Assembly: GCA_017436865.1 (NCBI GenBank)
Contig: JAFSCH010000112.1
Coordinates: 1-38,717 of the forward strand
From: Lachnospiraceae bacterium
GTDB taxonomy: Bacteria; Bacillota; Clostridia; Lachnospirales; Lachnospiraceae
DNA length: 38,717 nucleotides
Direction of reading: 5' to 3'
Both the position numbers and the translations under genes were made by a program. Below the pieces are notes generated by a model. That model made no database searches. It worked only from the letters and a program-made list of their open reading frames with translations, and was not told the DNA's origin. Below, in pieces: positions 6,059 to 38,717 of the stretch. Numbering within the stretch: the stretch's first letter is position 1; every line of letters begins with the position of its first letter.

Positions 6059-7864
6059 ATGAATCATAAAAAAGGCATGAGATGTATGGTGTTTCTAATG
6101 AGTCTGTTTCTGCTTGTGTCATTCTGTTCTAATACATATGCGTTGGAACTGGAAAATAAAGATAAAGCAATTGTATTTGCACTTGATACTAGTGGAAGTA
6201 TGAAAACAAATGACCCAGACAGATTAGCCATTGACAGTATCATGCAGATGATATATACACTTACATCCGACTATAGAGTTGGTTTTATCGCTTATAATTC
6301 AGAGATCACCATGGATCAAATGCCGCTAGCGAATGAAAGACGTAATGAGATTATGAAAATGACAGAAGCAATCCAATATGCAGGCTATAGCAATGCAGGA
6401 GAGGGACTGAAAAAGGCAGTAGAATTTCTAAGTAATGATACTGCAGAAGAAAAGCATATTGTATTGTTGTCAGATGGAGAGATTTTGTTAAAAGAAGATG
6501 CTGATACGCAAGCTTCAAAAGAGCTATATCAGAATGCAATCCGTGATGCAGAGGAACGGGGAATTTTAATTCATGTAATTGGCCTTGGTGATGAAATGGA
6601 GGATATGAATAATGCCATATTCCAAGCTGGGGAGGATACAGGAGGAAGAACCTATTACACACCGCAGGCATTAGATATTCAGAATGCCGTAGATGCCATC
6701 TTAGAAGAAGAACTGGCGATTAAGCAGTCGACAATTGCCATGATAGATGCCAGTGGAGAGTTGGAAACAATATCTGCGGAGCTTCCGTATACCTATGCTG
6801 ACAAGGTAAGAATATTGCTAACCAGTACAGCACCGATTCAGAACCTGAATACTAATTTTCAGGCAGATAGTGCGAATCAGATAAACGGCGAAAGATATTC
6901 AATAATAGAAATGAATGAACCGTATGGCAAAAGGATTGATTTAAGCTTCCGAGGAACCAAGGATAATCGTGTACGTGTTACGGTAATACCGGAATATCGA
7001 GTGATTCCTAAGGTAGAGGTGACCTATAAGGATGAAGTTCCAACATCAGAAAACTCTCTTTTTTATAACAGAACAGCAGAGATTACTTATTCATTTTATG
7101 ACTTGGATAATCATGACATTCAATTATGGACGGATGATTATTTTGAACATAATAAGCTTGGTGTTACCATAGCGGAGCATTCAGAAGAGTTAACACTGAA
7201 TGAAGGAATACTACAGAAAAAAGTATCAGTTCTTAATACACAGACCGTAGAAACAAGTATAGACTATTCGAAGTTGCCGGTTAATGTGATCGGAATTAAT
7301 ACAGCAGACATAACGCTGGAGGAACCGCCATTATTGCCAATACCAGAGCCTGATCCTGAACCAGAGCCGCCGTATGCTCTGATTATAGCGGTAATCGTAA
7401 CTGCAGTGCTTTTGTTTGTGATTATCATTATTTTAATCATAAAAAGCAGGAAAAAACCACCGGTACAGGAAGAGGACAAGCCGGAACCAAGCTCCTATAG
7501 CTATGCCGGAAAGCTGAATATCTATATCACGCAGACACAGTCAGGATATGATATACCACCATTGTCGTTTAATCTGTTCCGGTTACCACCGGGTAAAGTA
7601 ATCTCCTTAAAGGAGATACTGGAGAACTGCAATGTGAGTGAAGAGTTTGCAGGTGCAGAAGCCATTTATTTCAAGTCAGGAGCCAATCACAATCTGGTCA
7701 TAACCAATAATTCTGATTGTACGGTTATGAAGAATCGTGAAATCATGATGAAAAAGAAAAGCTATCAGATTACGCCGGATTCTAAGGTAGATATTACCTT
7801 TGAAGATGAAATAAGCGAATTGATGTTTCAGTATAAAGAACTTAAGCCTTCTGAGATGTGGTAG
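6059..7864 (+). CDS. Membrane-anchored von Willebrand factor A (VWA) protein with FHA-like cytoplasmic tail
   Basis: The 601-aa protein begins with a signal peptide (basic start, hydrophobic core, cleavage near NTYALE). A VWA domain follows with an intact MIDAS motif DTSGSMKTND (Asp at about residue 43) and LLSDGE. A middle domain of about 200 residues and a proline/glutamate linker (PEPDPEPEPP) lead to one membrane helix at about 438-462. The last 110 residues have a beta-rich pattern (LVITNNSDCTVM, ITFEDEISEL) that could be a diverged FHA-like domain; this is inference. The VWA part would face outside the membrane and bind a protein partner through a metal ion. It is the first gene of the injection-like cluster. 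GAGAGGG lies 11 bases before the ATG. Confidence 0.85.
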   Translation: MNHKKGMRCMVFLMSLFLLVSFCSNTYALELENKDKAIVFALDTSGSMKTNDPDRLAIDSIMQMIYTLTSDYRVGFIAYNSEITMDQMPLANERRNEIMKMTEAIQYAGYSNAGEGLKKAVEFLSNDTAEEKHIVLLSDGEILLKEDADTQASKELYQNAIRDAEERGILIHVIGLGDEMEDMNNAIFQAGEDTGGRTYYTPQALDIQNAVDAILEEELAIKQSTIAMIDASGELETISAELPYTYADKVRILLTSTAPIQNLNTNFQADSANQINGERYSIIEMNEPYGKRIDLSFRGTKDNRVRVTVIPEYRVIPKVEVTYKDEVPTSENSLFYNRTAEITYSFYDLDNHDIQLWTDDYFEHNKLGVTIAEHSEELTLNEGILQKKVSVLNTQTVETSIDYSKLPVNVIGINTADITLEEPPLLPIPEPDPEPEPPYALIIAVIVTAVLLFVIIIILIIKSRKKPPVQEEDKPEPSSYSYAGKLNIYITQTQSGYDIPPLSFNLFRLPPGKVISLKEILENCNVSEEFAGAEAIYFKSGANHNLVITNNSDCTVMKNREIMMKKKSYQITPDSKVDITFEDEISELMFQYKELKPSEMW

Positions 7865-7914
7865 AAAGCATATTCAGAAAGGTAAAAAATAACACACAAA
7901 GGGAGTGGGAAAAG

Positions 7915-10104
7915 ATGGAAATAATCAACCAAACAAACAGGACGCTTCTGTTGGATGTCATTAATCCACAAATGCCAGACTTGCTTACCATGATAGGTGA
8001 TGTAAAGGGGATTGACAGTCTGGATGATGACAAGATGAAAGAAATTAATCAGTTCTTAGAGTGCCACAGCTATGAAGAGGTGGAACGCAAGTTCCAGCCG
8101 GTAGTATGGTCATTCTTTGACGCAAATTCTCAGTCGGTAAAGTATACGCTTGAGAAGCCGGAGAACATACCGGATTCTATGCTGACACCGATTAATATTA
8201 ATGAATTTGAGAATTTCCAGAAGGCAGTGCTGTCTGTTATGCAGTCCAGAAAAGCACAGGGACTACTCAACGTAGAGTTTGGGTTTGAGAAGATGCTGGA
8301 GATGATATCGCCGAAAAAGGTAATGGATGATATTAAGCAGGTGCGAAAGGAAATCCAGTATAACTATAAGAAATTTGCAGAATTAGAGGATGGAGATCCA
8401 CAGAAGCTGGATTTAGGAGATAAGCTGAATCTGCTGTTTGAGGATGCAAGCAAGAATTATAACAATATTATGGCAATGCTGCCTCTTGCAATCGAGGATA
8501 TTAAGACAAGATTGTTATTAGGCGGTGGAGAACAGGTTAATGATGGGCAGGATATTGTGCCTGGATATCTGTCTCTGGGCGATAACGGAGAATTAAAGGT
8601 ATTAGAGGCGCCAAAGGCAGATACAACAGCGTTGGTAACTCTGGATGATAATGTAAATACGGGATTGATGGAGGTAATCAAGGAGGATTATCAGGCGGTC
8701 AATGACCAACATAACGATTATGTGGAGAGTCTGGTTGTACGTACCTTCTGTCCATTGGCATCCACACAGCAGACAGCCATTGATGTAGAAACAGAGGTAG
8801 CCAATTATAACAGCTATTTGGAATTCTACCGGACATCGAAGGATAACTTTATTAAGGTCGTAAAGCCTTTGTTGGAAAAATTGCTTGGAATCAGAATGTT
8901 TTTTGACCAGTATAAGACCAAGAAAAAGGGCATGAAGCCGGCATTGCTGATTGCGAATGTTTCACCGGAAATGATTGCAAAGAGTTCTTATATGCCACGA
9001 TTGATTACTTATCTGAATACCACAAACGGCAAAAATAACTTCCATGATACCATCTGGTATGCTATTTACCCGAATGTTTCGTGGAGTCAGAATGTAACCA
9101 ATAAGATACAGAGAGAACGTTTCAAGGGTAATGTGAAGAAGGTCAGTACAGATGTATATAGCATGGAAGCACTTGCTACTCTTATGGATGTCTTTAAGGA
9201 GTATCGTGTAGAAACCTTCTTCTCATTTGAAAATCGTGAAGAAACCACCTTTAATGCATTGGCGGCAGAAGGCATTGATAAGGCAATCGAAAAGTGTAAG
9301 CCATTGATGGGTAAGCCATATAGCGAGTTCGCGATTCCGGTATTGCCGAACTTTACGGTGATTCCTAAGAATAAGTCAGGAGTCATTCTGGACAGCAGGA
9401 TGAAGGTATCTGAGAGCAAGGGGGCTGAATTATCAGATGCAAAAGAGGATATTATGCGGCTCTGGATAGAGGGTGTTTATATCAATGGAGCATATGTGGC
9501 AGCAGGCTTCCGTGCAGCTTGTCAGTGTCCGGAATTCTTAAAGGATCATTTTACGAAGGCAAAAGCACTAACAGACTTGGAGCTTCCGGGGGTTCGATTT
9601 GATATTGAAGCAGGTAATAATTCCTTAATGGCGTATACAACTATGCCAAAGGAAATCACAGGCTTTACCAATAGCATAAAGGCACAGATTAATCAGAAGA
9701 ATTTTGGCTGGATCTTTGCTTCCGAGAATGCTTCCCTGAATGGAGAAAATATTACCAATATTTCGGTTTATAAGGCAAGAAATCTTCTGTATGATTCAGA
9801 AAAATCTTCCTATGAACCGGTATATAAGACACAGGTAACAACCTATATCGAGAGAATTCTCAGATATGTAACAGGTGATTTCAAAGAGGATAATATTAAG
9901 AACTTCTTCTCGAATAATCCACAGAGCCAAAAGAGTAAATGGCTTGCAAAGAAGGAATGCGTCAATGCCATTATTACAGAGGGCGATAATCTTGATTACA
10001 CCATTGATGATGCAAATGGAGTCTGTGAATTAACGTTATCCTTTAATGGAAGTCCAAGAAATTTGGAGGTTCAAATCAATCGTTTGACTTCAAATATATC
10101 CTAA
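7915..10104 (+). CDS. Large contractile-sheath-like protein, possible TssB-TssC fusion
   Basis: The 729-aa protein starts at the ATG after GGGAGTGGG. Its first ~220 residues resemble TssB in pattern: MPDLLTMIGD, KFQPV, then LNVEFGFEKMLEMISPKKV, like the phrase in TssB in which hydrophobic residues precede DFSPxxV. A low-complexity linker follows. The remaining ~480 residues have the length and features of TssC: repeated motifs near NYNSYLEF, a glycine-rich core with IEGVYINGAYVAAGFRAA, and a C-terminal region RILRYVTGDF ending in an amphipathic strand (LEVQINRL). TssB and TssC normally form the contractile sheath around the tube as two proteins. Position directly before two tube-like genes supports the role. 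The assignment rests on pattern and context, not on an alignment. Confidence 0.6.
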   Translation: MEIINQTNRTLLLDVINPQMPDLLTMIGDVKGIDSLDDDKMKEINQFLECHSYEEVERKFQPVVWSFFDANSQSVKYTLEKPENIPDSMLTPININEFENFQKAVLSVMQSRKAQGLLNVEFGFEKMLEMISPKKVMDDIKQVRKEIQYNYKKFAELEDGDPQKLDLGDKLNLLFEDASKNYNNIMAMLPLAIEDIKTRLLLGGGEQVNDGQDIVPGYLSLGDNGELKVLEAPKADTTALVTLDDNVNTGLMEVIKEDYQAVNDQHNDYVESLVVRTFCPLASTQQTAIDVETEVANYNSYLEFYRTSKDNFIKVVKPLLEKLLGIRMFFDQYKTKKKGMKPALLIANVSPEMIAKSSYMPRLITYLNTTNGKNNFHDTIWYAIYPNVSWSQNVTNKIQRERFKGNVKKVSTDVYSMEALATLMDVFKEYRVETFFSFENREETTFNALAAEGIDKAIEKCKPLMGKPYSEFAIPVLPNFTVIPKNKSGVILDSRMKVSESKGAELSDAKEDIMRLWIEGVYINGAYVAAGFRAACQCPEFLKDHFTKAKALTDLELPGVRFDIEAGNNSLMAYTTMPKEITGFTNSIKAQINQKNFGWIFASENASLNGENITNISVYKARNLLYDSEKSSYEPVYKTQVTTYIERILRYVTGDFKEDNIKNFFSNNPQSQKSKWLAKKECVNAIITEGDNLDYTIDDANGVCELTLSFNGSPRNLEVQINRLTSNIS

Positions 10105-10136
10105 TCACACAAAGAAAATGAATGGAGGAAAAGAGT

Positions 10137-10562
10137 ATGGGTTTCAGATTGACAATTGATGGTTCTGGACCGGTAAATCTGAGTGAAAAGTGCATTACCA
10201 ATGTGAAGTTTCACTCTGAGATTCCGGCAGATTCAAATGCAAGGGCAACTGACAATGGTGCAGCCATTGAGATTTGGGGAAAAATGTTGTTTTCTCTAGG
10301 AGCCGAAGAGCAGGATTCTACAATTAACCTTGCAAAATGGAGTGTGGTACCAAGTGATTCAGCAGATTCCTACCGTAAGGTTCAGGTAGATGTTGTGGCA
10401 GCAGGACAGATTGTTCGTTCCTTTACGTTACCAAATGCCTTCGTGATGGCATATAGTGAGGAACAGGATGATGAAAGCGGTGTAGGAACCTTCTATCTGC
10501 ATGTAAAGCAGAAGAAGGACTTAACAAGTGCGACTGCTATTGAAGGCGGATTCAGCCAGTAA
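10137..10562 (+). CDS. Hcp/tail-tube-like protein, copy 1
   Basis: The 141-aa beta-rich protein is a close paralogue of the next gene. Both share the core VKFxxEIPxDSNAR, then EIxGK, a central WSxVPxD and a C-terminal GTFxxxxKQKKD. Size and beta content fit an Hcp (TssD) or phage tail-tube subunit, which stacks into hexameric rings inside the sheath. The start at 10137 has GGAGG 8 bases upstream; the upstream ATG at 10122 would overlap that ribosome site. Strong ribosome sites on both copies fit a high-level structural protein. Similar proteins may carry misleading database names, so structure-based searching would be more reliable than name transfer. Confidence 0.65.
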   Translation: MGFRLTIDGSGPVNLSEKCITNVKFHSEIPADSNARATDNGAAIEIWGKMLFSLGAEEQDSTINLAKWSVVPSDSADSYRKVQVDVVAAGQIVRSFTLPNAFVMAYSEEQDDESGVGTFYLHVKQKKDLTSATAIEGGFSQ

Positions 10563-10576: not shown

Positions 10577-11005
10577 ATGTCATTAATTGTAAAAGTAGAT
10601 GGTCTGGATTCTTTTGAAGTTTCCAAGGAATGTGTACAGAAGGTAAAATTCCAAACAGAAATCCCTCAGGATTCCAATGCAAGAACAAAGGACGTAGGAT
10701 GCTCCTTGGAGATCACCGGTAAGATTCTGGTTGCCACAGATGGTGATCCATTTGACAGTACAAGACAGCTGGCACTGTGGTCTATGGTTCCCGCAGAGGA
10801 TGCGGCAGCTTACCGCCAGGTTACGGTAGAAATCGTAGAAGCAGGCTTAATTGAACGAAAGTATTCGTTCCCAAGAGCATTTGTTGTGGATTATAAGGAA
10901 GAGTATGGTAATACGGACGGAATCGGAACCTTCCGAATCTTAATCAAGCAGAAGAAGGATAAGCTGGATCTTGTATCTGTAGACGGCGGATATGCTGGTG
11001 CCTGA
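10577..11005 (+). CDS. Hcp/tail-tube-like protein, copy 2
   Basis: The 142-aa protein aligns along its whole length with copy 1, with roughly half the residues shared by eye. Conserved positions include KVKFQTEIPQDSNAR, a hydrophobic strand, WSMVPAEDAAAYRQV, the SFPRAF strand and IKQKKDKLD. AAAGGAGGG lies 8 bases before the ATG, the best ribosome site in this part. Two diverged copies in tandem suggest that one forms the tube and the other a cap, tip or alternative tube protein; which is which is unknown. A perfect hairpin directly follows the stop codon. Confidence 0.65.
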   Translation: MSLIVKVDGLDSFEVSKECVQKVKFQTEIPQDSNARTKDVGCSLEITGKILVATDGDPFDSTRQLALWSMVPAEDAAAYRQVTVEIVEAGLIERKYSFPRAFVVDYKEEYGNTDGIGTFRILIKQKKDKLDLVSVDGGYAGA

Positions 11006-11125: not shown

Positions 11126-11572
11126 ATGGAGAGACGAGAAGACTTATATAGGATTCTGGGAGTATCAGAAAAAGCAACGGAAAATGAAATAAAGCAGGCA
11201 TATCGTAAGCTTGCCAAAAAGTATCATCCTGATTCACATCCCGGAGATAAGGAATGTGAGAGAAGATTTCAGGAAATCAGCGAAGCCTATAGCGTATTAA
11301 GTGACTCGGAAAAAAGGAAGCAATATGACTCACAAAAGCAGGAAGAGTCAAGAGGACAAGCTGCCAATGCAAATTCAGGCAAAAAGCAGGAAACAGGAAA
11401 CTCGCAATATTCTAGTGTTGACTTTGAAAATGTATACAAATCGTTTGAACAATTCTTCGGATTTAATCCAGATTCAAAGGATATCACAAATGAAAAGAAA
11501 TTAAATCCAAAATCGGGAAATCCGCTGGATACAACAGATATGTTTGAACGGTTTATGGGAATAAAGAGGTAA
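11126..11572 (+). CDS. J-domain protein (short DnaJ-like co-chaperone)
   Basis: The 148-aa protein begins with a full J domain (residues about 5-70): [20 protein letters not shown], the HPD motif in KKYHPDSH, and [13 protein letters not shown]. It then becomes polar, without the zinc-finger or C-terminal substrate domains of full DnaJ. J proteins stimulate Hsp70 ATPases. An 871-aa Hsp70-like protein is encoded at 17595 in the same cluster, so it probably works with that partner rather than with general DnaK; this is inference. The start at 11126 has GGAGGGG 7 bases upstream. Confidence 0.88.
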
Positions 11573-11575: not shown

Positions 11576-12124
11576 ATGGGGAAACAGATGGATAGGGTAA
11601 TAGACAGAATCATTGCGGTGCTGCTTCTCATTATGGCAGTGCTGATAGGAATTGCCGTAGGAATACAAAATGCATGGCGCTGGATTGTTATGATTGTCGC
11701 GATAGCAATCGCACATTGGCTGTGGTCATGCAGGAAGGAAAAAAGAAATGAGAATAGTATGACGGAAGAATTTCAGCCGCCAAAAGATACTGTGACAGAG
11801 CTGGTACTACTGGCAGAGGATAACACAAGGCTTGCAACATGGGGGCTATACGGGAAAAACGGTCTGGTAATAGGGCGTGATGTAGGGGAGAATCAGGTAT
11901 CTGTCAATCTGGAAGAAACGACCTATGCAAGTATGATAGATGTGGAGCATGCAGTACTCAATTACTCAGGAGATGCCTGGTATATCGAAGATATTTCCGA
12001 GAAAAACGGTATTAGTGTACAGAAAGCGGATGGAAGAAGGTACAAGCTGGCTTATGGAAAGCCTTGCAAAGTGGAATACGGTGATATTATCTATGTTGCA
12101 TTAACCCGTTTGCAGGTGCTTTAG
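11576..12124 (+). CDS. Membrane protein with cytoplasmic FHA domain
   Basis: The 182-aa protein has two adjacent membrane helices at about residues 10-50, then an FHA domain with VIGRD near the start and AVLNYSG, YIEDISEKNGISV in the core. FHA domains bind phosphothreonine. The gene starts 4 bases after the J-protein stop, so the two are translationally coupled. Together with the PP2C phosphatase downstream it suggests control by Thr phosphorylation, as in the Fha1/PpkA/PppA circuit of some T6SS. No kinase is visible in this window. Confidence 0.85.
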   Translation: MGKQMDRVIDRIIAVLLLIMAVLIGIAVGIQNAWRWIVMIVAIAIAHWLWSCRKEKRNENSMTEEFQPPKDTVTELVLLAEDNTRLATWGLYGKNGLVIGRDVGENQVSVNLEETTYASMIDVEHAVLNYSGDAWYIEDISEKNGISVQKADGRRYKLAYGKPCKVEYGDIIYVALTRLQVL

Positions 12125-12156: not shown

Positions 12157-12678
12157 ATGGCAGAATCAAATTTAATACGTTGTCAGAATGGACACATGTT
12201 CAGTAAGAAGAGATATGGTACAGTTTGTCCATATTGCAATATCGAAACGGCAACACCGGAAAAGAAGGAAGTACATAAAACAGAGATGGAGCTGGAAGAG
12301 GAATTATTCAGAGAGGATGTAAAGCCTGTATGTGGGTGGCTGGTCTGTATCTCAGGTCCACGTCAAGGGAAGGATTATAAAATTGTTCAGGGAAAGAATT
12401 TCATAGGTCGTGCAGATGATATGGATATACAGATTCTTGGTGATAATGAAATCTCAAGAAGGAATCATGCCATTATTGTATTTGACCCTAAGAAAAAAGA
12501 AACCGTTTTGTTACCGGGGGACTCGAATGGCTTGGTGTATTGGAATGATTGTGCTGTCTATACACCTACACCATTAAATTCCTATGACAAGATAGAGCTG
12601 GGAAAATCAACCTTTGCCTTTCTTCCGTTTTGTGGAAACCATTTTATGTGGGGAGAGAAGGAAAACAGCGAAGATTAA
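12157..12678 (+). CDS. Zinc-ribbon plus FHA domain protein
   Basis: The 173-aa protein begins with a likely zinc ribbon: RCQNGHMFSKKRYGTVCPYC, with Cys/His ligands spaced CxxGH...CPYC. The FHA domain from about residue 60 has IGRADDMDI, SRRNHAIIVFD and a SNGLVYWNDC region. It is soluble, with no membrane segments. It is a second phosphothreonine reader in the cluster and may recognise a different partner than the membrane FHA protein. GGTGGGGAA lies just before the ATG. Confidence 0.85.
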   Translation: MAESNLIRCQNGHMFSKKRYGTVCPYCNIETATPEKKEVHKTEMELEEELFREDVKPVCGWLVCISGPRQGKDYKIVQGKNFIGRADDMDIQILGDNEISRRNHAIIVFDPKKKETVLLPGDSNGLVYWNDCAVYTPTPLNSYDKIELGKSTFAFLPFCGNHFMWGEKENSED

Positions 12679-12698
12679 AAAATAGGATGGGGAGAAGA

Positions 12699-13547
12699 AT
12701 GATATCAGAGGTAGCTTATTATAGCAGCATTGTATTAGGTGGCATAATTGTAATCTTAGAGCTGATAAAAATACTATGTAGTTCTTCAGACAGACAGGTG
12801 AGAAAACAGCTGGATATAGGATCATGTATGACCATTGGAAGCAGAGAGGTACAGGAGGATCAGTTTAACTATCTGACAACGGAAGCAGGAGTTATGGCAG
12901 TACTGGCAGATGGTGCGGGCAAGACCTTTGGAGGAAGAATAGCAAGCAGGATTGCAGTTCAGACTTGTACAGAGATATTTGAGGACTATAATGCCTTCAA
13001 TAACCCGCAATATTTTTTCCGAAAGGCATTTCACTGTGCAAACAAAGAGATTTTGAAAGCAGTAGGAGATGAGAATCGAGGAACAGCAAGTGCCGGCTGT
13101 GTATTAATACGAAATAAATATCTGTATTATGCGGTTGTAGGGAATGTAAAGGTCTGTGTGTTTCGTGAAAATGCATTAGTACCGGTGTCAACCGGACATA
13201 CCATAGCAGTGCTTGCAGAGCAAAGATTTCAGGAAGGGAAAATAGCTCGTGAGGAGGCTTTAAGCCTGCTTGCAAACCACAGATTGTATAATTGTCTGGG
13301 GAAGGATGATTTTAAAGATATTGAATATTTTGATGCTCCAATCAGGCTTAAGAAAAATGATATTGTGGTTTTGATGAGTGATGGAGTATATGAGTTGTTA
13401 GGGTATAAGGAATTAGAAACTATATTGGGGAAAGAGCAGACTTGTCAACAGAAGGCATTTGAGATTATTGAGATGGTAAATCAAGATGCATCCAAACAGA
13501 AGGATAATGCCAGTATACTGTTAATAAGTGTGGGGACGGAGTTATAG
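12699..13547 (+). CDS. PP2C-family Ser/Thr protein phosphatase, membrane-anchored
   Basis: The 282-aa protein has one N-terminal membrane helix (IVLGGIIVILELIKIL), then a PP2C domain with SREVQEDQF, LADGAGKTFGG, NRGTASAGC, VGNVKVCVF, MSDGVYELL and KDNASILL. The Asp residues that bind the two metal ions (in QEDQ, ADGAG, MSDG and KDNAS) are present, so activity is expected. It probably removes phosphate from the target of the FHA proteins. The start at 12699 is chosen because GGGGAG is just upstream and earlier in-frame starts lie inside the FHA gene. Overlap with neighbouring genes shows tight coupling. Confidence 0.88.
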   Translation: MISEVAYYSSIVLGGIIVILELIKILCSSSDRQVRKQLDIGSCMTIGSREVQEDQFNYLTTEAGVMAVLADGAGKTFGGRIASRIAVQTCTEIFEDYNAFNNPQYFFRKAFHCANKEILKAVGDENRGTASAGCVLIRNKYLYYAVVGNVKVCVFRENALVPVSTGHTIAVLAEQRFQEGKIAREEALSLLANHRLYNCLGKDDFKDIEYFDAPIRLKKNDIVVLMSDGVYELLGYKELETILGKEQTCQQKAFEIIEMVNQDASKQKDNASILLISVGTEL

Positions 13548-25729: not shown

Positions 25730-25783
25730 TGCGATTTTTTTATGCTTAATCTTATGAATAATTCAAGAAGCAGGTCAGAATGG

Positions 25784-27749: not shown

Positions 27750-27988
27750 ATAGAGGTAGCGGTCTTGTAAATCGTGAGGCAGACTCCAATGGACTTCGTA
27801 GCTCATTAGCAATACTGATTGTTGCAATAGCAGAAAATGATGATGAGAGAATAAGAAGTGTTCTGATGGAAGAAATATATAATCTTGACGGAGAAAAATT
27901 AGATGGTCTGGTACTGAGAAGAATGGATGAATATGAAATGCTAAGGTTTGGTGATTACGAGCGAGATTATACGCAACCTAAGAAGTAA
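27750..27988 (+). pseudogene. Orphan 3' end of an unrecognised gene
   Basis: An open frame without a start codon encodes about 77 residues, including SSLAILIVAIAENDDERIRS, and ends TQPKK followed by TAA at 27986. It begins exactly where the duplicated segment ends. It looks like the tail of a gene whose front was replaced by the duplication. No family is recognised. Confidence 0.6.
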
Positions 27989-28003
27989 TATGTGAGGTGT
28001 AAA

Positions 28004-28594: not shown

Positions 28595-28604
28595 AGATAT
28601 GCGA

Positions 28605-28728
28605 CAAAGAGAGGAATTTTGAAATATGTTCACAGTACATAGAAAAAAGAAAAAGTATATGTTTTGTTTAATGTTAGTGGCAAGTTTTACTTTCCTCTTA
28701 TTCGGTTGCGCTAGTTTTTCACAGACGG
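28605..28728 (+). repeat. Repeated leader module, copy 2
   Basis: Second copy of the 124-bp ribosome site and signal-peptide segment, offset by 2821 bp from the copy at 25784. Few substitutions are seen. Confidence 0.85.
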
Positions 28729-30467: not shown

Positions 30468-31103
30468 ATGGGAAATGTAGATGAAGAAATCTTGAAGCAG
30501 CGAGAGGCAATGGAAGAGTTTGAAAGACAACGCTTTTCCAAGGAAACAATCGAAAAGGAAAAGCAGCAATCCATCTTTGATTCCGAGATAGAAATCAATA
30601 AGATACCTGTTAGATTTGCAGAGAGAAAGCTAATTGAAGATAAAATCAGCATATGGATGCCGGAGGACTTTGAGGCACTTTCGCAGGAAACGATAGATGC
30701 CATATATCTGCTGGGGAATAAGCCGGATATGGTCTTTGGCAACAGCTATCTTACCTTTTCAGTGGGCTTTCATTATACCGAGCATAAGGTTCCGAATGAA
30801 TATATGGGAGACTTCCTGAAAATCACAAAACTGATTTTAGAGAAGTCAGGACCAAAGGTAAAGATTATGGCAGAGAAGGTAAGACAGACAGGAAGACATA
30901 CCGTGTCCTGGCTGGAGCTGATATCTCATTCGGTTACGGATACCGTATACAACTATATGTTTTTTTCATCATTAGAGGACAGAGTGTTAATAGGCTTTAT
31001 CAACTTTAATATCAAGTATCAGGAAAGATACAGACCAATCGCAGAGGAAATGATACAGTCATTTCGTTTCCCGGATGATGAGAAGGAAAGCGGGGATGAG
31101 TAA
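30468..31103 (+). CDS. DcrB/Eag-like protein, possible Rhs/VgrG effector chaperone
   Basis: The 211-aa protein has a charged helix (about 1-45) and then a domain of about 150 residues with ISIWMPEDF, FGNSYLTFSVGF and a final IAEEMIQSFRF. This order resembles the DcrB/PsbP fold used by Eag chaperones, which hold the membrane helices of Rhs and other effectors before loading. It sits directly before the first VgrG-like gene (its TAA overlaps that gene's ATG) and upstream of the Rhs effector, which has a hydrophobic segment. The similarity is by pattern only. Confidence 0.5.
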   Translation: MGNVDEEILKQREAMEEFERQRFSKETIEKEKQQSIFDSEIEINKIPVRFAERKLIEDKISIWMPEDFEALSQETIDAIYLLGNKPDMVFGNSYLTFSVGFHYTEHKVPNEYMGDFLKITKLILEKSGPKVKIMAEKVRQTGRHTVSWLELISHSVTDTVYNYMFFSSLEDRVLIGFINFNIKYQERYRPIAEEMIQSFRFPDDEKESGDE

Positions 31104-32503
31104 TGGAAGTAATCTCTTATGAAAATATCAAAATCAGTGGTTTTCCGTTTCAAAAGCTGTTAACCCTACACATCATACATAATCCAAATGAACATGGATT
31201 CGCAGAGATAGAGGGGGAAATTGACCCGGAGCAGGCGCAGGGTATCGTGCAGCGTGCGGATGAGAAGATGGAAGTAGTCATTACAACGACAGCAGAGGGA
31301 CAGCCGCAAAAGCTGTTCTGCGGCTGTGTAAAGAGTCTGTCCATGCAGCAGGAGAATGCCTATAGCAGAATCAATCTACAGCTCTATACCACCAGCAGAC
31401 GTACCGATATCACGAAGGAAAACAGAACCTTTCAAAATACATCTAAGACCTATGGACAGATTATTTCTGAGGATATTTCCGCAAATGCAGACCTGCATAT
31501 GATGGTATCGGATAAGGCAATCGGACAGCTTATTATGAAATATAACGAAACAGATTGGGAATTCACGAAACGTATGGCATCACAACTGAAAGCACCGCTT
31601 GTGGCGGATATTTATTCTGCCAGAGCGCAGCTTTACATAGGACTACCGCCAGCAAGCAGAACCATTACGGCAGAAAGCGGTTCCTACTCCTATGGAAGTG
31701 ATGTATCAGCCTACGCACAAAATGCAGATGCCATGGTAGAGGACTTTGCAGGAGAACAGGTGGAGCTGGAGCAGTATGCATATATCGGAGATCAGATTTC
31801 CTTAAATGGCAAGAATAAGTTCATTAAGAGCGTATACGCCTATCTGGAGGATGGCATTATGCATATCCGATACGGCTTGCTGGCTGCGACGGCAATGGCA
31901 GCAGGCGGAAGCATGGCAGGAATTGCAGTACCCATGACAGAGAGCAAGGCATCCGGAAAAATGATGAAGGGTATCGTTCAGGCAATTGATAAGGATAAGG
32001 TACAGGTGCATTTAACAGATATTGATAAGGGATATGATAGTGGCGGAAACTGGTGGTTTCCTTTTTCAACAGCATATTCCTCCAGTGATGGAAGTGGCTG
32101 GTATTGTATGCCGGAAGAGGGAGATGAGGTGCGTGTATTTTTCCCTTCCGGTAAGGAAGGAGAGGCATTTGCGGCAAGCTCCGTATGCATGAATCCGCCA
32201 AGCAATCCGAAGCATAAGAGCTGGAAGGCTCCCGGAGGAAAGGAAATCCTTCTGACAGACGAAGGCATGTACATTATCGGAAAATCAGGCAAAATATACA
32301 TCAATCTTACCGATGAAAAAGGAATTGAGATACATTCAGATAAGGATATCTCGATTACATCGGATTCTAAGATTAGCGTAACCTCAGCAGATGAGGTACA
32401 TATCGTTGCGGAAAATGAGATTATGATTGGAACCGCAGAGGCATATATTGACCTTACCAAGAATACGGCAACACTGGCGGCAAGTGAGGTTCTGATTAAC
32501 TAA
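31103..32503 (+). CDS. vgrG: VgrG-like spike protein without effector domain
   Basis: The 466-aa protein follows the VgrG/gpD-gp5 plan. An N-terminal gp27-like part contains FQKLLTLHI and ETDWEFTKRMASQLKAP. From about residue 282 an OB-fold reads KMMKGIVQAIDKDKVQVHL and continues with WYCMPEEGDEVRVFFPSG, the typical exit of this domain. The last 80 residues form short beta repeats (KIYINLTDEKGIEIHS, DISITSDSKISVTS), like the three-sided spike. No extra domain follows. VgrG trimers cap the tube and carry PAAR tips. The ATG overlaps the stop codon of the gene before it. Confidence 0.85.
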   Translation: MEVISYENIKISGFPFQKLLTLHIIHNPNEHGFAEIEGEIDPEQAQGIVQRADEKMEVVITTTAEGQPQKLFCGCVKSLSMQQENAYSRINLQLYTTSRRTDITKENRTFQNTSKTYGQIISEDISANADLHMMVSDKAIGQLIMKYNETDWEFTKRMASQLKAPLVADIYSARAQLYIGLPPASRTITAESGSYSYGSDVSAYAQNADAMVEDFAGEQVELEQYAYIGDQISLNGKNKFIKSVYAYLEDGIMHIRYGLLAATAMAAGGSMAGIAVPMTESKASGKMMKGIVQAIDKDKVQVHLTDIDKGYDSGGNWWFPFSTAYSSSDGSGWYCMPEEGDEVRVFFPSGKEGEAFAASSVCMNPPSNPKHKSWKAPGGKEILLTDEGMYIIGKSGKIYINLTDEKGIEIHSDKDISITSDSKISVTSADEVHIVAENEIMIGTAEAYIDLTKNTATLAASEVLIN

Positions 32504-32515: not shown

Positions 32516-33538
32516 ATGGCAGAAACATACATTCAGATGTTTCAGGAGAAAATCTATCCTGAGGTCTTTTTGAAAATAGCAGAGGAAACGATAGAGCGGT
32601 TTGTAGAAAGAGAAGAACAGATTCTGGAGGAATGGAAAAAGGGAATAAAACAGTACATGGAACAGCTGGTGTCAATACAGAAAATGACACAGGACACTTC
32701 TGTTTCCGAGATAAATATATCATTCCTATATACCTCTCTATATGACGAAAAGCCTGTGTTCAGAATTGACAGCTATTGCGAAGGCGGGAGAGTAATGCAG
32801 GAAAGTATGCTGACAGCATATTTGCCGGCAGACTGGCTTGTTGCAGGAATGGACAAATTAGAGCAAATGCTTACCGAGCGGGCTGCAAGGGAAAGCATGA
32901 GAAGATATGTACGTGCGGCGGAGATAGAAACCTTAAAGCTTCGGGCAGTGAGAAGTCTTGTATACTATTTTGCATTACGTTTTAAGTATCTGATACAGGA
33001 TATGATTGATTTTAAATGCCTTGCACAGATTCAAAAATCTGACAGCTTTGTCATTCAGATAGGAGAATACATGGACTGGCAGAAGACTATCTATGCCATT
33101 TTTCCAGAGGTGGATATCTTCAACTGTGATAAGAAGACTGACCTTAGATTCCGAAACTTCCCGGCAATCTATTACAAGAATAAGCGGTTTGAAGGACTGA
33201 ACCTGACACAGGCAAGATTTCAGGACTGTACCTTTATGGAAAGCACGATTGAGAACTGTGTGATGAATGACTGCCTGTTTGAGAATTGTATCTTTGAGCA
33301 TGTGAAGCTTACCGATACCAAGATGTCAGGATGTCTGTTTCAGAACTGTACCTTCCGACAGGTGGATTTTGAAAATGACAGCTTCTATCAGGGAATGGAA
33401 CAGAGCACCGAGCCGGAATATTTTGAACCGGCAGAATTCTTCCGCTGCTCCTTCACGGACAGTAATTTCAGGGAATGCAGCCTGTCGCAGTGTATTATAA
33501 CGGATTGTGAAGGGCTTACCTCAGAAGAGGAGGTGTAA
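32516..33538 (+). CDS. Pentapeptide-like repeat protein of the cluster
   Basis: The 340-aa protein has a helical N-terminal 180 residues with no known motif. From about residue 225 it has a repeat every 5 residues with Cys/Phe inside (ARFQDCTFMESTIENCVMND, LFENCIFEHV, LFQNCTFRQVDFEN). Pentapeptide repeats form right-handed beta helices that bind proteins. The Cys-rich version is notable. It follows the VgrG gene by 12 bases, so it may bind the spike or a cargo protein. Confidence 0.7.
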   Translation: MAETYIQMFQEKIYPEVFLKIAEETIERFVEREEQILEEWKKGIKQYMEQLVSIQKMTQDTSVSEINISFLYTSLYDEKPVFRIDSYCEGGRVMQESMLTAYLPADWLVAGMDKLEQMLTERAARESMRRYVRAAEIETLKLRAVRSLVYYFALRFKYLIQDMIDFKCLAQIQKSDSFVIQIGEYMDWQKTIYAIFPEVDIFNCDKKTDLRFRNFPAIYYKNKRFEGLNLTQARFQDCTFMESTIENCVMNDCLFENCIFEHVKLTDTKMSGCLFQNCTFRQVDFENDSFYQGMEQSTEPEYFEPAEFFRCSFTDSNFRECSLSQCIITDCEGLTSEEEV

Positions 33539-33543: not shown

Positions 33544-34071
33544 ATGGAATACTTTGAAATGACACAAAGCAAAAAGGTAGAAAATCCCATACAGCTTATG
33601 GGATTGGATTCACAGTTGTATACCTATGCCATGACAGAGAAAGACTTTGAAGCGTTAGAAAAGCTAAAGGTGGCTTATTTTAGTGGGCGTGAATATGAGG
33701 AAATCTGTGACATACTGCTCCAGCCGACCTATCTGATATCAGATGAACTGAAAAAACTCCTCGAGCTATATGAGAGAAAGACCCTGTTCAAGGGTGTGCA
33801 GATCTTTCCGACTGCGAAGGAGAGTAAGCAATATCCTATCTACTGGGTGCCTCAGTTCCCGGTACTTGATTGCATTCATAACAGCACCGTTAAGGGGGAT
33901 AATGGAATGCTGCAGAAGCTGGTATTAGATTCAAGGAAGATAGGCAACAGGCAGATATTCCGATTACCCGGATTTCTGGAATATAAGGTAATCGTATCCA
34001 TGCCCGTAGCAGAGAGTATTTTGCGAAGAAGATTCTATGGCGTTGGGTTTGAGAAGGTAGAGGTGAGATAG
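33544..34071 (+). CDS. Unknown small soluble protein (175 aa)
   Basis: The product has no membrane segment and no clear motif. A region with KGVQIFPT, PIYWVPQFPVLDCIH and the end KVIVSMPVAESILRRR could be compared with polymorphic-toxin immunity proteins of the Imm11 type, but the resemblance is weak. It is coupled with the next gene, since the next ATG follows the stop at once. Confidence 0.45.
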   Translation: MEYFEMTQSKKVENPIQLMGLDSQLYTYAMTEKDFEALEKLKVAYFSGREYEEICDILLQPTYLISDELKKLLELYERKTLFKGVQIFPTAKESKQYPIYWVPQFPVLDCIHNSTVKGDNGMLQKLVLDSRKIGNRQIFRLPGFLEYKVIVSMPVAESILRRRFYGVGFEKVEVR

Positions 34072-34797
34072 ATGGTAAAAAAGATAGTAGAGGGTTTTAT
34101 AGTAATAGTCAGCCTCATTGTTGCATTTTTTGTATATAAGGGGATAAACCCGGAACAATTTATTAAGCCGGATGACACACCTGTCATGTTGGGAGAGATT
34201 GATATCACGTCACAGACGTGCTACACAGGAAAGGCAGCAGGAAGTGATATTCCAAGACTGACAAGCAGTGAGGAACTAGAAGAACTGGTGGGGACAAGCT
34301 ATGTTACCGCACAGACAAGTGAGGTCATTTCCACAGGAGTCTATGGTATAAAGCCTTGGGTTGACCCATATGAGATTACGAAGGTGCGTAACGCAAAGGG
34401 AAGAATGGTAAGCAGCGGACGAAGAGCACCGGATGCAACAGATAACGCAGTACAGGCAGTGGAATATTATCAGGAATATTTTCTGATTAAGCTGCCCGAT
34501 GAGAGCTATATCTTGGCGCAGTTTGGCGATACCTGTAGAGAGAAGATAGAGAACGGAGAAAACATTACACTGCCAATCGGATTGAGAAAGGCAAACACAG
34601 ACACAGCAAGAAAATACTTAAAAGACATATGTGACAGCTATCAGGCAGATAATACATACACATTATATATGATTGATGATGAATGGCAGGAAGAGCATGA
34701 ATTTACCTTTATGCTCATGAAGTTAGGAATAGCAGCAGTTGTATTTATAGTACTCGCAGTAGGAGCACTTACTATATTTTATAAGGTCAGTGACTAG
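34072..34797 (+). CDS. Bitopic membrane protein of unknown function (241 aa)
   Basis: Two membrane helices (about 7-24 and 215-236) flank an outward domain of about 190 residues. No family is recognised. The protein could be an anchor or envelope part for the system, or a protective protein for the Rhs effector encoded next. The start follows the previous stop codon directly. Confidence 0.5.
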   Translation: MVKKIVEGFIVIVSLIVAFFVYKGINPEQFIKPDDTPVMLGEIDITSQTCYTGKAAGSDIPRLTSSEELEELVGTSYVTAQTSEVISTGVYGIKPWVDPYEITKVRNAKGRMVSSGRRAPDATDNAVQAVEYYQEYFLIKLPDESYILAQFGDTCREKIENGENITLPIGLRKANTDTARKYLKDICDSYQADNTYTLYMIDDEWQEEHEFTFMLMKLGIAAVVFIVLAVGALTIFYKVSD

Positions 34798-34820
34798 AGC
34801 GGTAGTATGGAGGTGTGTTT

Positions 34821-37800
34821 ATGGCATCAAATAAGGAACAAATGGATCTTGGACAGTTGATATTACAGTCAGATATGGAAGCACTCTATATCAAAAATGT
34901 TCAGATAGAAGAAGAGTCCAATGAGCATGGAACGATGGTAATTCGTTTTCTTTCAGGCAAAAAGCTACAGTCAGCAGATGTATTACGCCATCAGGGTAGT
35001 AAGCTTCGACTGGTAACGACAGATGGCGAAACGGTATTTGCCGGCGAATGCGTAAACATCAATCTGATAAAAGAAAACGAATATGCAGAGATAGAAGTAG
35101 TTGCCAGAACCACATCCATTCAGACCGACAAGCAGGAAAAGACCAACACCTTTCAGGGAGTGGGAAAGACATTAAACAGCATTTTGGCTGTTGGTATCGG
35201 GAAAAGTGCGCTCATTCAGCTGGATCGTGATGTGACAATCGATGAAATGCTGTCACAGGAAAAGGAAACAGACTGGAGCTTTGGACGCAGGATTGCGAAT
35301 CAGTATCAGAAGCAGTTCTTCGTAAACAGCAAAGCAACAGGCTGTCAGATACATATCGGAGAAGTGCCTTTTCAAAAGAAAGAAGTAGGAACGATTCTGC
35401 ACAAAGCAGTGAGCAGAGATATTGATAAGGTAAGAAGCATGCAGGGCAATAAGTGCCCGGGCAATAACAGTCCGGCTGCTTCTGTATTCGAATATGAAGA
35501 AACGACACTGACCATCAGTGATCTTACGATAGGTGTCGGATACGCCATAGAGTATCAAGGAAGAACGCAGATAGTTACAAGAAGCCGTATCACCTGTGTA
35601 CAAGGTGTTCTGCAAAATGAGATAACCATTGTCCATGAGGAAGGCTTAAAGCCGTCTGTCAATCAGTCCATGGGAAGCATGAACCGTTCCAGTATTCTGA
35701 CAGGTACAGTTCTGGAAGTGGATGGAACCAATGTGAAGGTGGATTTCCATTCACCAAATGATGAACCACGGTGGATACCTTATGCCCATGCAGTCAGCAA
35801 TTATCTCTATTCCATGCCGGATGAGGGTGACACCGTATTTGTCTATTATGAAACAGGTGCCAGTGATAAAATCGTGTGCCTTGGAAGTAAGCATGTGAAG
35901 GAAAGCCCTGACTTTGCAAACTATCAGGAAAAGATGTTCACAGCCAATAACCGTATGATTAAGTTCGGTGATAAGTCCGTAAACCTCATTGGTAACAGAA
36001 GTGAATTAGATGGCTATGATGATAAACAGGCAAAGATTATTTTCAACGATGAAACAGGAATCGAGATTCAGAGCACCAATGATATTTTGGTGGAAACCAC
36101 AGATGGCGGACAGATTTCCTTTCAGGCAGTAAAGGAAGACTTCCCGGGAATGGACGAGCTGCGTCAAAAATTTGAGCGCATGTATGGCGAGGGAAACGAT
36201 AAGTACGAGGCTGACGGCGGTAAGGCTGATTTCGATGCCATGGCATATCTGCAAGGCAAGGAATGGGACAGGCTAAAGCAGAATATTAAGGATAACTTAA
36301 TGGCACCATTGCAAATCGTGGGAACTCTGCAGGAGCTTGCAGGAAGAATTGGCGGTTCAGATGAGACGGAGACAGAAGCTATGGAAGAGGCAGCACCGGA
36401 ATATACAGATGGTGTCATTGATATCTTTGCACTCAACAATCTGGTCTTAGAGGTAGGAACCACGACCATCAGCATCTCAAACGGTATCATACAGATCAAG
36501 ACAGGAACCTATATGCAGCTTGGCACAGACCGTTCCGTTACCTATGAGCATCTGGAGGATGCCAATTATACATGGCGTGACATGGCGCTTGATGTAGCGC
36601 AGCTTGCGCTTGATATTGTCGGTGCATTGCCGATTCCGGGTGTATCGACCGTAGCGAATCTTGCTAATGCAGGAATCTCACTGGCAAGAGGGGATTATGT
36701 TGGAGCTGCGATTTCGGCAGGAACAGCAGCGTTGTCACTGATACCGGGAGCTAATACTGCGGTAGCAGCCGGAAAAGCAGCAGTGACAGCAGCAACAAAA
36801 GCATCTAAAGTTGTAAAAGCAGTAAGTGCCGTTGCTAAGGCGGTAAAGGCATTAAAAACAGGAGCAGAAAGCGTAAACATGCTCCTTACCACTGGAATGG
36901 CAGTATATGATGTTGGAAAAGCGGTTGCAGACGGCTCCTTTGATTGGAATGACCCGGATTGCAGACAGGATGTGTTTAGTATTCTGCAGGGAGCACATTC
37001 CACAGGACAAATGGCATCAAGCAGAAAGAAAAAAGGCGATGGAGTAGATGCCGATAGTAATGATACCCATAAAATAAAAGATACGGAAAAGGATACCAAT
37101 AATCCTGCTGAAACAAATAAGCCGAAGCTGAATGAGAATTCCGATAACAGATGTAAGAATGGTGAGCCGATTGATATGGTCACAGGCAGTTACCTTGTGG
37201 AACAGTGTGATTTCATCATTAATGATGTGGTAGGAATCTTTGCAGTGGAACGTACCTATGAGTCATTGCTTTCCAAGAAGGATTCACCGATTGGACGAGG
37301 CTGGACCTTAAGCCTGTTCAGTAGGGCTTACATCTATGATGACAGAGTCGAAGTAGTTCTGCCCGATAACCATACAGAAACCTTCTTAAAAACTGCCCAA
37401 GGTTTCCGAAACCGTCGTGGTGGTACGAAGCGAATGACTCTGCATATGCAGGAGAATGGTTACCTTCTGACCGAAGCAAGGACAGGTATGACCAGATTTT
37501 ATGATGCAGATGGCAGGCTCCTTGTAATTACAGATGAGAATGGCAATAAGACCATATATCATTATATTGGAGATACCCTGCAAAGGATTTCCTTTGCCAG
37601 CGGTCAGTTTCTGGATTTCTTATGGGAAGATAATAAGATTATCTCCATGGAGGACTGTCTTGGTCGTAAAGTGGTCTACCATTACGAAGGTGACTTCCTG
37701 ACAGCGGTTGAGATGGTGACCGGTGGTATGGAAGCCTATGCGTATGATGCGGAAGGACACATCACGGACATCACAAATGCCAATGGTGAGACGTATGTAC

Positions 37801-38717
37801 ATAATGAGTATGATGCAAGCGGACGTGTGACCTTGCAGACCTTGTCAAATGGACAGGAATACATCCTGCTCTATGCGGATGATGACAGAACGAATACCTA
37901 TCTGGTTCCAGTCAATGGTAAGGAAATCAGATACATTTACAATAAGGACAGACAGCTTATCCGAACAGAGTATCAGGACGGTACCTGTGAGGAGACTGCA
38001 TATGACTGCTGGGAGAACCGAATCTGGGAAAAAGACCGCAATGGAAATGAAACACATCGTATCTATGATGAATACGGTCATCTTCTGGAAGAGAAGAAGC
38101 CAGATGGTCTTGTGATAACCTATCAATATGACCCGCAGGGAAACTGCATCCATATGGCAGATAACGCCGGACGTGAGAGCTGGTATGAGTATGACAGGAA
38201 CGGAAACCTGATTAAGGAAACAGAGCAGATGGATGCGTTTACACAGCGTGAGATATTCTATGAGTATGACAAGCATGGACGTGTGACTGCCTTTATCGAT
38301 TCGAATGGAAACAGGGAGTCTTTCCACTACAAGCATAAGTTCTGGAAATATACGACCTTTATCACTGCCGGAGGAACCCACTATGAGCATGGTCTTGACC
38401 GTGCCGGAAGACGTGTGACCACGAAGGATTCTGATGGCATTTCCAGCTATGCCTACAATAACTTCGATTTCCTCTGCATGGAGACAGACCCGCTTGGCAA
38501 TACGACCAAGTATCTCTATGACCGTGTACTGGATATGACAGGCGTGGTACAGCCCAAGCACTTCCAGCCGGCATCCAATGATGAGAAACGTGAGACTTAT
38601 ACCTATGATGCCCTGCATAACCGTCTTTCGAGGACGGATGCAGAAGGTGCCGTATTTGCCATGCTCAGAGATGGCGAAGGAAATATCATAAAGGAAATCA
38701 ATCCGAATGCCTATGAC
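34821..38717 (+). CDS. VgrG-like spike fused to a transmembrane segment and Rhs core (3' end outside window)
   Basis: The frame is open for 1299 codons to the window edge. An N-terminal gp27-like domain includes LRLVTTDGETVFAGE and KETDWSFGRRIANQY. An OB-fold begins at about residue 290 (ILTGTVLEVDGTNVKVDF). An Ala/Gly/Leu-rich hydrophobic segment at about 587-640 resembles effector transmembrane helices. From about residue 780 a DUF6531-like entry motif NGEPIDMVTGSYLVEQ leads into YD repeats typical of Rhs (YDADGRLL, DENGNKTIYHY). Rhs shells enclose a variable C-terminal toxin that is not in view. This is likely a second, large effector of the system. GGAGG lies about 10 bases before the ATG. 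Confidence 0.85.
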   Translation, partial: MASNKEQMDLGQLILQSDMEALYIKNVQIEEESNEHGTMVIRFLSGKKLQSADVLRHQGSKLRLVTTDGETVFAGECVNINLIKENEYAEIEVVARTTSIQTDKQEKTNTFQGVGKTLNSILAVGIGKSALIQLDRDVTIDEMLSQEKETDWSFGRRIANQYQKQFFVNSKATGCQIHIGEVPFQKKEVGTILHKAVSRDIDKVRSMQGNKCPGNNSPAASVFEYEETTLTISDLTIGVGYAIEYQGRTQIVTRSRITCVQGVLQNEITIVHEEGLKPSVNQSMGSMNRSSILTGTVLEVDGTNVKVDFHSPNDEPRWIPYAHAVSNYLYSMPDEGDTVFVYYETGASDKIVCLGSKHVKESPDFANYQEKMFTANNRMIKFGDKSVNLIGNRSELDGYDDKQAKIIFNDETGIEIQSTNDILVETTDGGQISFQAVKEDFPGMDELRQKFERMYGEGNDKYEADGGKADFDAMAYLQGKEWDRLKQNIKDNLMAPLQIVGTLQELAGRIGGSDETETEAMEEAAPEYTDGVIDIFALNNLVLEVGTTTISISNGIIQIKTGTYMQLGTDRSVTYEHLEDANYTWRDMALDVAQLALDIVGALPIPGVSTVANLANAGISLARGDYVGAAISAGTAALSLIPGANTAVAAGKAAVTAATKASKVVKAVSAVAKAVKALKTGAESVNMLLTTGMAVYDVGKAVADGSFDWNDPDCRQDVFSILQGAHSTGQMASSRKKKGDGVDADSNDTHKIKDTEKDTNNPAETNKPKLNENSDNRCKNGEPIDMVTGSYLVEQCDFIINDVVGIFAVERTYESLLSKKDSPIGRGWTLSLFSRAYIYDDRVEVVLPDNHTETFLKTAQGFRNRRGGTKRMTLHMQENGYLLTEARTGMTRFYDADGRLLVITDENGNKTIYHYIGDTLQRISFASGQFLDFLWEDNKIISMEDCLGRKVVYHYEGDFLTAVEMVTGGMEAYAYDAEGHITDITNANGETYVHNEYDASGRVTLQTLSNGQEYILLYADDDRTNTYLVPVNGKEIRYIYNKDRQLIRTEYQDGTCEETAYDCWENRIWEKDRNGNETHRIYDEYGHLLEEKKPDGLVITYQYDPQGNCIHMADNAGRESWYEYDRNGNLIKETEQMDAFTQREIFYEYDKHGRVTAFIDSNGNRESFHYKHKFWKYTTFITAGGTHYEHGLDRAGRRVTTKDSDGISSYAYNNFDFLCMETDPLGNTTKYLYDRVLDMTGVVQPKHFQPASNDEKRETYTYDALHNRLSRTDAEGAVFAMLRDGEGNIIKEINPNAYD

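Follow-up and report, generated by a model that had tools for sequence, protein, structure and literature searches.

The type VI secretion system (T6SS) has been described as a Gram-negative machine, and the locus examined here raises the question of whether a Lachnospiraceae bacterium encodes a contractile injection machine of its own. The window, by which we mean the whole 38,717-nucleotide stretch analysed, is one whole contig (JAFSCH010000112.1; G000:C149 in our numbering) of a 169-contig genome. An original prediction had placed sheath-like, tube-like, VgrG-like, PAAR-like and Rhs proteins in one co-directional cluster at 6059-38717, beside J-domain, Hsp70-like, FHA, PP2C and VWA proteins. 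The listing of open reading frames (ORFs) confirmed the gene positions and direction: every likely gene of this interval lies on the + strand, the cluster is cut by the contig end, and the starts at 7915 and 10137 are a better fit than the longer ORFs of the listing. Judged from its sequence, the cluster is real and has the tube, spike, tip and effector fusion of an injection type, and we regard a tube-spike injection system as nearly certain. Our reading, to which we give a probability of about 0.7, is an injector that contracts in the manner of a T6SS, is docked at the membrane and has a baseplate, an ATPase and regulators of its own.

When 84,980 species genomes were scanned for relatives of the 7915-10104 protein, the candidate sheath, 374 stretches were found to encode one, and the best 80 of these 374 loci were examined. 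Extended stretches were taken from 11 other genomes chosen by hand, and some profiles were built with ORFs from six of the eleven. Pfam calls were judged by curated cut-offs, and matches below them are marked as such.

A tube of the TssD type

10137-10562, +, tube protein A, TssD/Hcp family (family profile versus TssD)
10577-11005, +, tube protein B, same family as tube A

The two small proteins predicted to be tube-like are 43% identical to each other and provide the firmest result of the analysis. By profile comparison, their family is that of TssD, the Hcp type of T6SS subtype iii (T6SSiii), and not that of proteobacterial Hcp. A 94-row tube profile aligned in hhalign with six Bacteroidota TssD over 113 columns (probability 91.4, E value 9e-7), and 0 of 100 column shuffles reached the score (43.5 versus a shuffled maximum of 21.4). 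When the TssD profile was run on the 2734 ORFs of the fetched loci, the top 100 were all tubes, and the first ORF that was neither tube nor sheath candidate stood at rank 125 (E 0.84). In the reverse test, with the tube profile on 714 reference ORFs, the top seven were all TssD. The curated TssD family (PF17642) matched 22 of 53 tube members (best E 0.001) and phage gp19 matched 1 of 53 (E 0.08). On 26 sheath-positive genomes, at E up to 10, curated TssD matched 19, in 18 of them at most 1.2 kb from the sheath gene (the exception being G503), and its cut-off was passed once, on another contig of G235. The tube profile showed no signal to proteobacterial Hcp (31 of 100 shuffles reached the score), a PDB search with the tube turned up only Hcp1 (E 1.1), and neither the sheath nor the tube candidates of the window had a meaningful single-sequence Pfam match.

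Of 69 loci, 68 had two tubes and the last had a single tube; among the extended clusters, two stood beside the sheath in six and one in five. Longer frames with a tube/TssD-like part were also seen, namely a 241-residue ORF in a Selenomonas locus (L090:18566-19291) and open frames of 324-375 residues on contigs C35, C69, C73, C122 and C143 of G235, and these are possible cargo-carrying tubes.

Spike, tip and cargo

31103-32503, +, VgrG-like spike (Phage_base_V 2e-5; family profile versus VgrG)
20231-21703, +, DUF4280 PAAR-like tip with variable C-terminal domain, probable effector (Pfam DUF4280 2e-18)
34815-38717, +, VgrG-like N-terminus plus Rhs repeats, truncated by the contig end, probable delivered effector (DUF6531, RHS 5e-36)
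30468-31103, +, DcrB/DUF1795-like protein, candidate effector chaperone, Eag-like (profile A7 versus PDB)
21709-29651, +, six ORFs, candidate immunity array (paralogy)
33544-34071, +, Imm11-family protein, core (Pfam Imm11 2e-6)

The VgrG-like and Rhs assignments both held. In the 31103 protein, Phage_base_V lay over the Pfam cut-off, and GPD, DUF2345 and NCBIfam TIGR01646 (vgr_GE, 6e-8) lay below theirs. Its best PDB match was All3320 (2e-5), which we take to be the spike of a cyanobacterial contractile injection system (CIS). Among the reference ORFs, the VgrG family profile found a Bacteroidota VgrG best (2e-28), followed by proteobacterial VgrG (4e-9 and 5e-6). Over 442 columns, the 34815 protein shares 24% identity with the 31103 VgrG (E 1e-18); the VgrG family profile covers its positions 20-434, and the protein runs on into RHS repeats.

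The PAAR-like tip proved to be of the DUF4280 type, and classic PAAR (PF05488) was found nowhere in the whole genome. This protein has an extra C-terminal 290 residues with a weak PHROG endolysin match (9e-4) over 200-303; the C-terminal part alone matched nothing in Pfam or the PDB, and DUF4280 ORFs elsewhere range from ~108 to 1715 residues. A C-terminal lysin as a conserved wall-breaching part was considered and dropped, as it was common to just one other fetched locus. An AHH nuclease domain occurs in the VgrG-like protein of G541 (1e-19), and G068 and G679 have sub-cut-off AHH matches in their DUF4280 proteins; in domain composition, these proteins show a polymorphic-effector pattern.

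DUF1795 proteins serve as effector chaperones (Eag) in T6SS, and the DcrB-like profile A7 matched DcrB (5e-4) and a DUF1795 protein (6e-4) in the PDB. The six ORFs at 21709-29651 are for the most part paralogues of mosaic make-up, and several have lipoprotein-type leaders, as would be expected of an immunity array, for which they are candidates. Within this region, 27225-27770 is 98% identical to part of 23837-25729 over 166 residues, which by sequence marks a recent duplication. Because it stands beside unlike effectors in 11 of 11 extended clusters, the Imm11-family protein may be an adaptor and not an immunity protein.

Regulators and membrane docking

6059-7864, +, VWA protein with signal-like N-terminus, VWA, second hydrophobic segment and C-terminal domain; candidate sensor or anchor
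11126-11572, +, J-domain protein with HPD motif (Pfam DnaJ 6e-29)
11576-12124, +, FHA protein (FHA1) with N-terminal hydrophobic segment (Pfam FHA 7e-7)
12157-12678, +, FHA protein (FHA2) with N-terminal four-cysteine segment, by eye (FHA 5e-6, Yop-YscD_cpl 6e-8)
12690-13547, +, PP2C phosphatase with N-terminal hydrophobic segment (Pfam PP2C_2 2e-10)
13550-15412, +, PP2C-like domain, hydrophobic segment at ~254 and TPR-like part, hereafter PP2C-TPR (PP2C_2 0.003, TPR 6e-6, both sub-cut-off)
34072-34797, +, protein with two hydrophobic segments (hydrophobicity windows)

The presence of regulators is supported by domain matches: the predicted J-domain, FHA, PP2C and VWA proteins all exceeded curated Pfam cut-offs, with VWA at 2e-14 and hydrophobic windows at 6 and 435 of that protein. 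The HPD motif was kept in 71 of the 71 loci possessing the J-protein gene. Among 52 relatives of the PP2C, the ADGxG-type pattern was found in 42, the SDG-type in 47, the DN-type in 46 and the ED-type in just 17; among 57 relatives of PP2C-TPR, the DN-type was found in 0, the SDG-type in 5 and ADGxD in 27. From this motif retention, the 12690 phosphatase is probably active and the PP2C-like domain of the 13550 protein probably inactive. In G541 and G763, protein kinase genes lie next to the cluster; the four kinase matches of the window's own genome are all on other contigs.

The original prediction had also seen no TssJLM membrane complex and no ClpV, and this stood as far as it was searched. 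TssM (PF06761) and TssF (PF05947) were found in 0 of the 26 sheath-positive genomes with profiles that match an E. coli control (TssJ and TssL were not searched for), and ClpV (TIGR03345) was above its cut-off in none of the 26. Sub-cut-off TIGR03345 matches, present in 25 of 26, are read as housekeeping Clp proteins.

We infer that the machine is docked at the membrane rather than released, and consider this probable. The best surviving alternative is an extracellular CIS or a tailocin, that is, phage-tail-like particles made in the cytoplasm and released by lysis. The failure to find TssM fits such particles, and the accessible parts of PMC12237407 describe a CIS in a monoderm, that of Streptomyces, as cytoplasmic and not membrane-built. 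We nevertheless hold this alternative unlikely. The tubes match TssD far more often than phage gp19, the effectors are borne as VgrG-Rhs and DUF4280 fusions, and several cluster proteins have hydrophobic segments. Among the window proteins scanned, no lysis, tape-measure, tail-fibre or AAA+ gene was recognised, bar the weak DUF4280 endolysin match, and the 20 scanned with Pfam yielded no AAA+ (CDC48-like) match. No extracellular CIS (eCIS) gene was recognised. Phage and viral collections hold no credible relative either: the 7915 protein had 0 relatives in 2.9 million viral contigs (IMG/VR) and just two matches in 50,697 phage records (E 4 and 9), taken as chance. Plasmids (72,556) likewise contained no relative.

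The candidate sheath

7915-10104, +, candidate sheath, 729 residues, possibly a TssB-TssC-like single chain; directly before the tubes

We think it likely that this protein is the sheath. Its position, size and co-conservation are compatible with one, and its N-terminus, roughly the first 150 residues, weakly resembles TssB at the edge of detection. In the best 80 of the 374 loci it is 57-88% identical to the window's protein, and in 79 of them it is one unbroken ORF of 700-760 residues. With a profile of seven proteobacterial TssB on the 2734 ORFs, 84 of the top 100 belonged to the 7915 family (best E 0.03), a family of 109 related ORFs within which weak ranks are not independent, and the profile aligned to the family in two collinear segments. 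In the reverse test on 714 reference ORFs, one TssB ranked first (E 0.05) and the next ORF had E 1.6. Profile alignment with 13 proteobacterial and four Bacteroidota TssB joined 26-145 to 54-134 at E 0.006, a score reached by 0 of 100 shuffles.

Several results weigh against this identity. In the same reverse test, the next TssB came only 12th. In HMMER, the profile of 13 and four TssB put ten sheath ORFs first, at a best E of just 0.16; with the 13 proteobacterial TssB alone, an unrelated ORF came first (E 0.05 versus 0.12) and 3 of 100 shuffles reached the score. Sheath ORFs also stood high in the ranking by a TssE profile (E 0.8 and up). Curated TssB (PF05591) matched at the sheath gene in 0 of the 26 genomes, with four weak places elsewhere, and 51 members of the candidate family matched no sheath family. 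Neither TssC nor T4 gp18 nor Mu L showed a signal against the residues after ~200. TssC (PF05943) was found in 0 of 101 genomes of the phylum, the window's own included, and Bacteroidota TssC (DUF5458-type) gave no signal against the family. The claim of a sheath-like protein stood for a weak TssB-like N-terminus and did not extend to curated TssB or to the residues after ~200. Sheath proteins are strongly divergent in sequence, and because of this divergence the lack of a match after ~200 does not exclude a sheath.

These same negatives favour a second alternative, non-contractile tube-and-spike export in which the 7915 protein would be a tube scaffold or chaperone, and the unusual Hsp70-like protein among the core genes is in keeping with it. 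We find it improbable, as the 7915 gene lies right before the tubes, its product has about the combined size of TssB and TssC, and its N-terminus is TssB-like. To our knowledge, every other machine with TssD, VgrG and PAAR-like parts is contractile, and these parts too argue for contraction.

A match of the sheath profile to viral NS1 in the PDB (E 0.02) was treated as chance. One relative, on a Roseburia bin contig (L037:2076-4276), has its sheath gene broken into two ORFs; the same bin holds a second, separate sheath-bearing contig (L014).

Conservation and distribution

15415-16713, +, conserved protein g15415, baseplate candidate (8 of 11 extended clusters)
16726-17418, +, core protein g16726, baseplate candidate (11 of 11, compact clusters included)
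17595-20210, +, Hsp70/actin-like ATPase candidate, 871 residues, core (phosphate motifs; 11 of 11)
29671-30444, +, core protein g29635, baseplate or tip-hub candidate (11 of 11; alignment A6)
32516-33538, +, pentapeptide-repeat protein (Pfam 7e-14)

Conservation of the cluster in Lachnospiraceae was found and reached beyond the family. With the window's own genome counted each time, relatives of the 7915 protein were present in 10 of 150 genomes of the same family, 7 of 291 of the class sample and 13 of 398 of the phylum sample, and a profile with more distant members again gave 13 of 398. The best 80 loci comprise 72 from Clostridia, three from Negativicutes, one each from Bacilli and Erysipelotrichia, and three unassigned; named strains with a relative include Lachnotalea glycerini DSM 28816, Lacrimispora xylanisolvens DSM 3808 and Pelosinus fermentans JBW45. 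Negativicutes possess an outer membrane, and because three of the 80 loci come from them, the system is not only Gram-positive.

Most of the best 80 loci share the order VWA, 7915 protein, two tubes, J-domain, FHA, FHA, PP2C, and because this block order is conserved, the cluster is not a chance arrangement. In loci long enough to show them, same-strand neighbours were VWA in 69 of 70, DnaJ in 67 of 72, FHA1 in 60 of 69 and FHA2 in 57 of 69, together with tube A in 77 of 78 and tube B in 75 of 76, and PP2C in 56 of 65 and PP2C-TPR in 54 of 59, the profiles within each of these last two pairs cross-matching so that their separate counts are not independent. The Hsp70-like gene (14 of 57), g15415 (36 of 57) and g16726 (34 of 57) have low counts because the loci end at ~10 kb and effector genes are inserted.

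The sheath candidate, tube, VgrG, Imm11-like protein, g16726, Hsp70-like protein and g29635 were present in 11 of 11 extended clusters, which suggests that they form the minimal machine. DUF4280 followed in 10. A count of 8 applied to FHA1, FHA2, PP2C, PP2C-TPR, g15415 and the DcrB-like gene, and a count of 7 to DnaJ and to the weakly matching pentapeptide protein; VWA was present in only 5, one of them on the opposite strand. Three compact clusters (G068, G679 and G805), with sheaths 25-27% identical to that of the window, have no VWA, DnaJ, FHA, PP2C (neither of the two in each case), g15415 or DcrB-like gene, and retain one tube and the rest of the 11-of-11 set. A gene of 419-440 residues with no detected similarity occupies the g15415 place in them, and in G805 a distance of 13-17 kb separates the sheath gene from the Hsp70-like and g29635 genes.

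A polymorphic-toxin island whose phage parts have decayed or been co-opted, and whose machine is no longer made, would fit the variable effectors and paralogous candidate immunity genes that occupy much of the locus and the split sheath gene of L037, and is scarcely credible against a sheath ORF kept at this identity and intact in 79 of the best 80 loci, in a gene order that is mostly kept.

Ahead of the cluster, the window carries a ComEC-like end (3-1178) and a DNA polymerase III delta subunit (3935-4915), and immediately upstream, divergent from the cluster, an AgrB gene (5198-5785, - strand, Pfam 5e-34). In G391 and G111, LytTR response regulators lie close to the VWA gene, with a GHKL-type histidine kinase ~40 kb away in G111. 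The AgrB and LytTR neighbours suggest quorum or density control of the cluster.

The ATPase and the proposed machine

The Hsp70-like protein carries nucleotide motifs at 227 (DFGTTNT) and 434 (DCGGGT) and has a weak DnaK match (0.04); no Pfam family or PDB chain matched it, and in this respect the predicted identity found partial support. All 14 complete copies kept the second phosphate motif, and 11 of them the first. Near the compact cluster of G805 (L145), a canonical Hsp70 domain is fused to a VWA domain (G805:C1:765577-767646) beside further Hsp70-like genes, so that VWA and Hsp70 parts recur together. That the cluster has regulators and an ATPase of its own, as predicted, agrees with the phospho-regulators and the Hsp70-like candidate present; replacement of ClpV by the latter is tentative, somewhat short of even odds.

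Our proposal runs as follows. A TssD tube, tipped by VgrG and the DUF4280 PAAR-like protein, would lie inside a one-chain sheath of 729 residues. Assembly would take place in the cytoplasm against a membrane platform of hydrophobic-segment proteins, perhaps some of VWA, FHA1, PP2C and PP2C-TPR. Outward firing would carry the VgrG-Rhs and DUF4280-fused toxins, loaded by the DcrB-like chaperone. The time of firing may be set by phosphorylation that FHA reads and PP2C reverses, with phospho-signalling releasing contraction. In place of ClpV, the sheath might be assembled or recycled by the Hsp70-like ATPase, together with the J-protein in clusters that have one. The tube, spike, tip and effector fusion of this scheme are supported at the level of the genes themselves; for the sheath's identity, firing control and the ATPase's role, as for docking, it is we who infer.

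Other observations speak against the injector as a whole. Curated TssD matched nothing in the window's own genome, nor in six others of the 26 tested. The Hsp70-like protein is a candidate by motifs and weak matches. The J-protein is absent from 4, FHA and PP2C from 3 and VWA from 6 of the 11 extended clusters, and because of these absences they are not obligatory. The conserved proteins g15415, g16726 and g29635 had no credible match to TssE, TssF, TssG, TssK or TssN, to Pfam or to the PDB, where TssE, TssG and TssK were compared with these three proteins and not searched for genome-wide. One conserved unknown (A5) gave a marginal score with one Bacteroidota TssG (0 of 25 shuffles; hhalign probability 0.8), and a TssG is not claimed; its match to an ion channel in the PDB (0.05) was treated as chance.

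Relation to known systems and meaning

The nearest known relative is probably T6SSiii, a system without TssJLM. The likeness lies in the TssD tube, a VgrG nearest to that of Bacteroidota, Rhs-type cargo and a TssM that was not found. In contrast to T6SSiii, the cluster has one chain of ~730 residues in place of TssB and TssC, with no signal to the T6SSiii TssC, no TssF and no ClpV over the cut-off, and it has an extra Hsp70-like gene and, in most clusters, FHA, PP2C and J-protein genes as well. Proteobacterial T6SS is switched by PpkA-PppA-Fha, which is echoed here by FHA and PP2C and, in two relatives, by a Ser/Thr kinase beside the cluster, and the 7915 N-terminus adds a weak TssB resemblance; the differences are that TssC, TssM and TssF were not found and no ClpV exceeded its cut-off, within the genome sets given above, and that the tube has no signal to Hcp.

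The cytoplasmic CIS of Streptomyces shares the monoderm setting and, according to the accessible parts of PMC12237407, needs the membrane adaptor CisA. From it and from eCIS of the Photorhabdus virulence cassette (PVC) type, the present cluster differs in its T6SS-like tube and effector style and its many hydrophobic-segment proteins. The haloarchaeal T6SS resembles it as a membrane-docked contractile system outside Gram-negatives; the available portions of PMC11566945 place its Cis11 nearest Bacillota CIS clusters.

Two papers have already speculated on such a Gram-positive system. One is that of Lays et al.; the other, PMC8651086, reports GPD-type genes beside its DUF4280 subtype in Firmicutes, without conserved eCIS or T6SS genes around them, and speculates on an unknown phage-like system. 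Separately, Zhang et al. 2012 (PMC3482391) tabled firmicutes among T6SS carriers, and the sections available describe no such cluster. Searches of the open-access literature, a scope outside which preprints and most subscription papers fall, listed no title or abstract that describes the machine.

The cluster is a candidate for the rest of that speculated machine, adding a tube and probably a sheath, in Lachnospiraceae and in named strains. One step further, it could be a distinct branch of contractile secretion across Bacillota, with a single-chain TssB-TssC-type sheath, a TssD tube, its own baseplate, no TssJLM, an Hsp70-family ATPase (usually with a J-protein) for ClpV and FHA/PP2C/kinase control, and be itself the "unknown phage-like translocation system" of Gram-positives; we put this forward as a possibility rather less likely to hold than to fail. 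The cluster raises the question of how the thick cell wall is crossed, and if the ATPase reading is true, an Hsp70-type motor would be at work in a contractile system. Built mostly of unrecognised parts, it may be the machine that others guessed must exist in Gram-positives.

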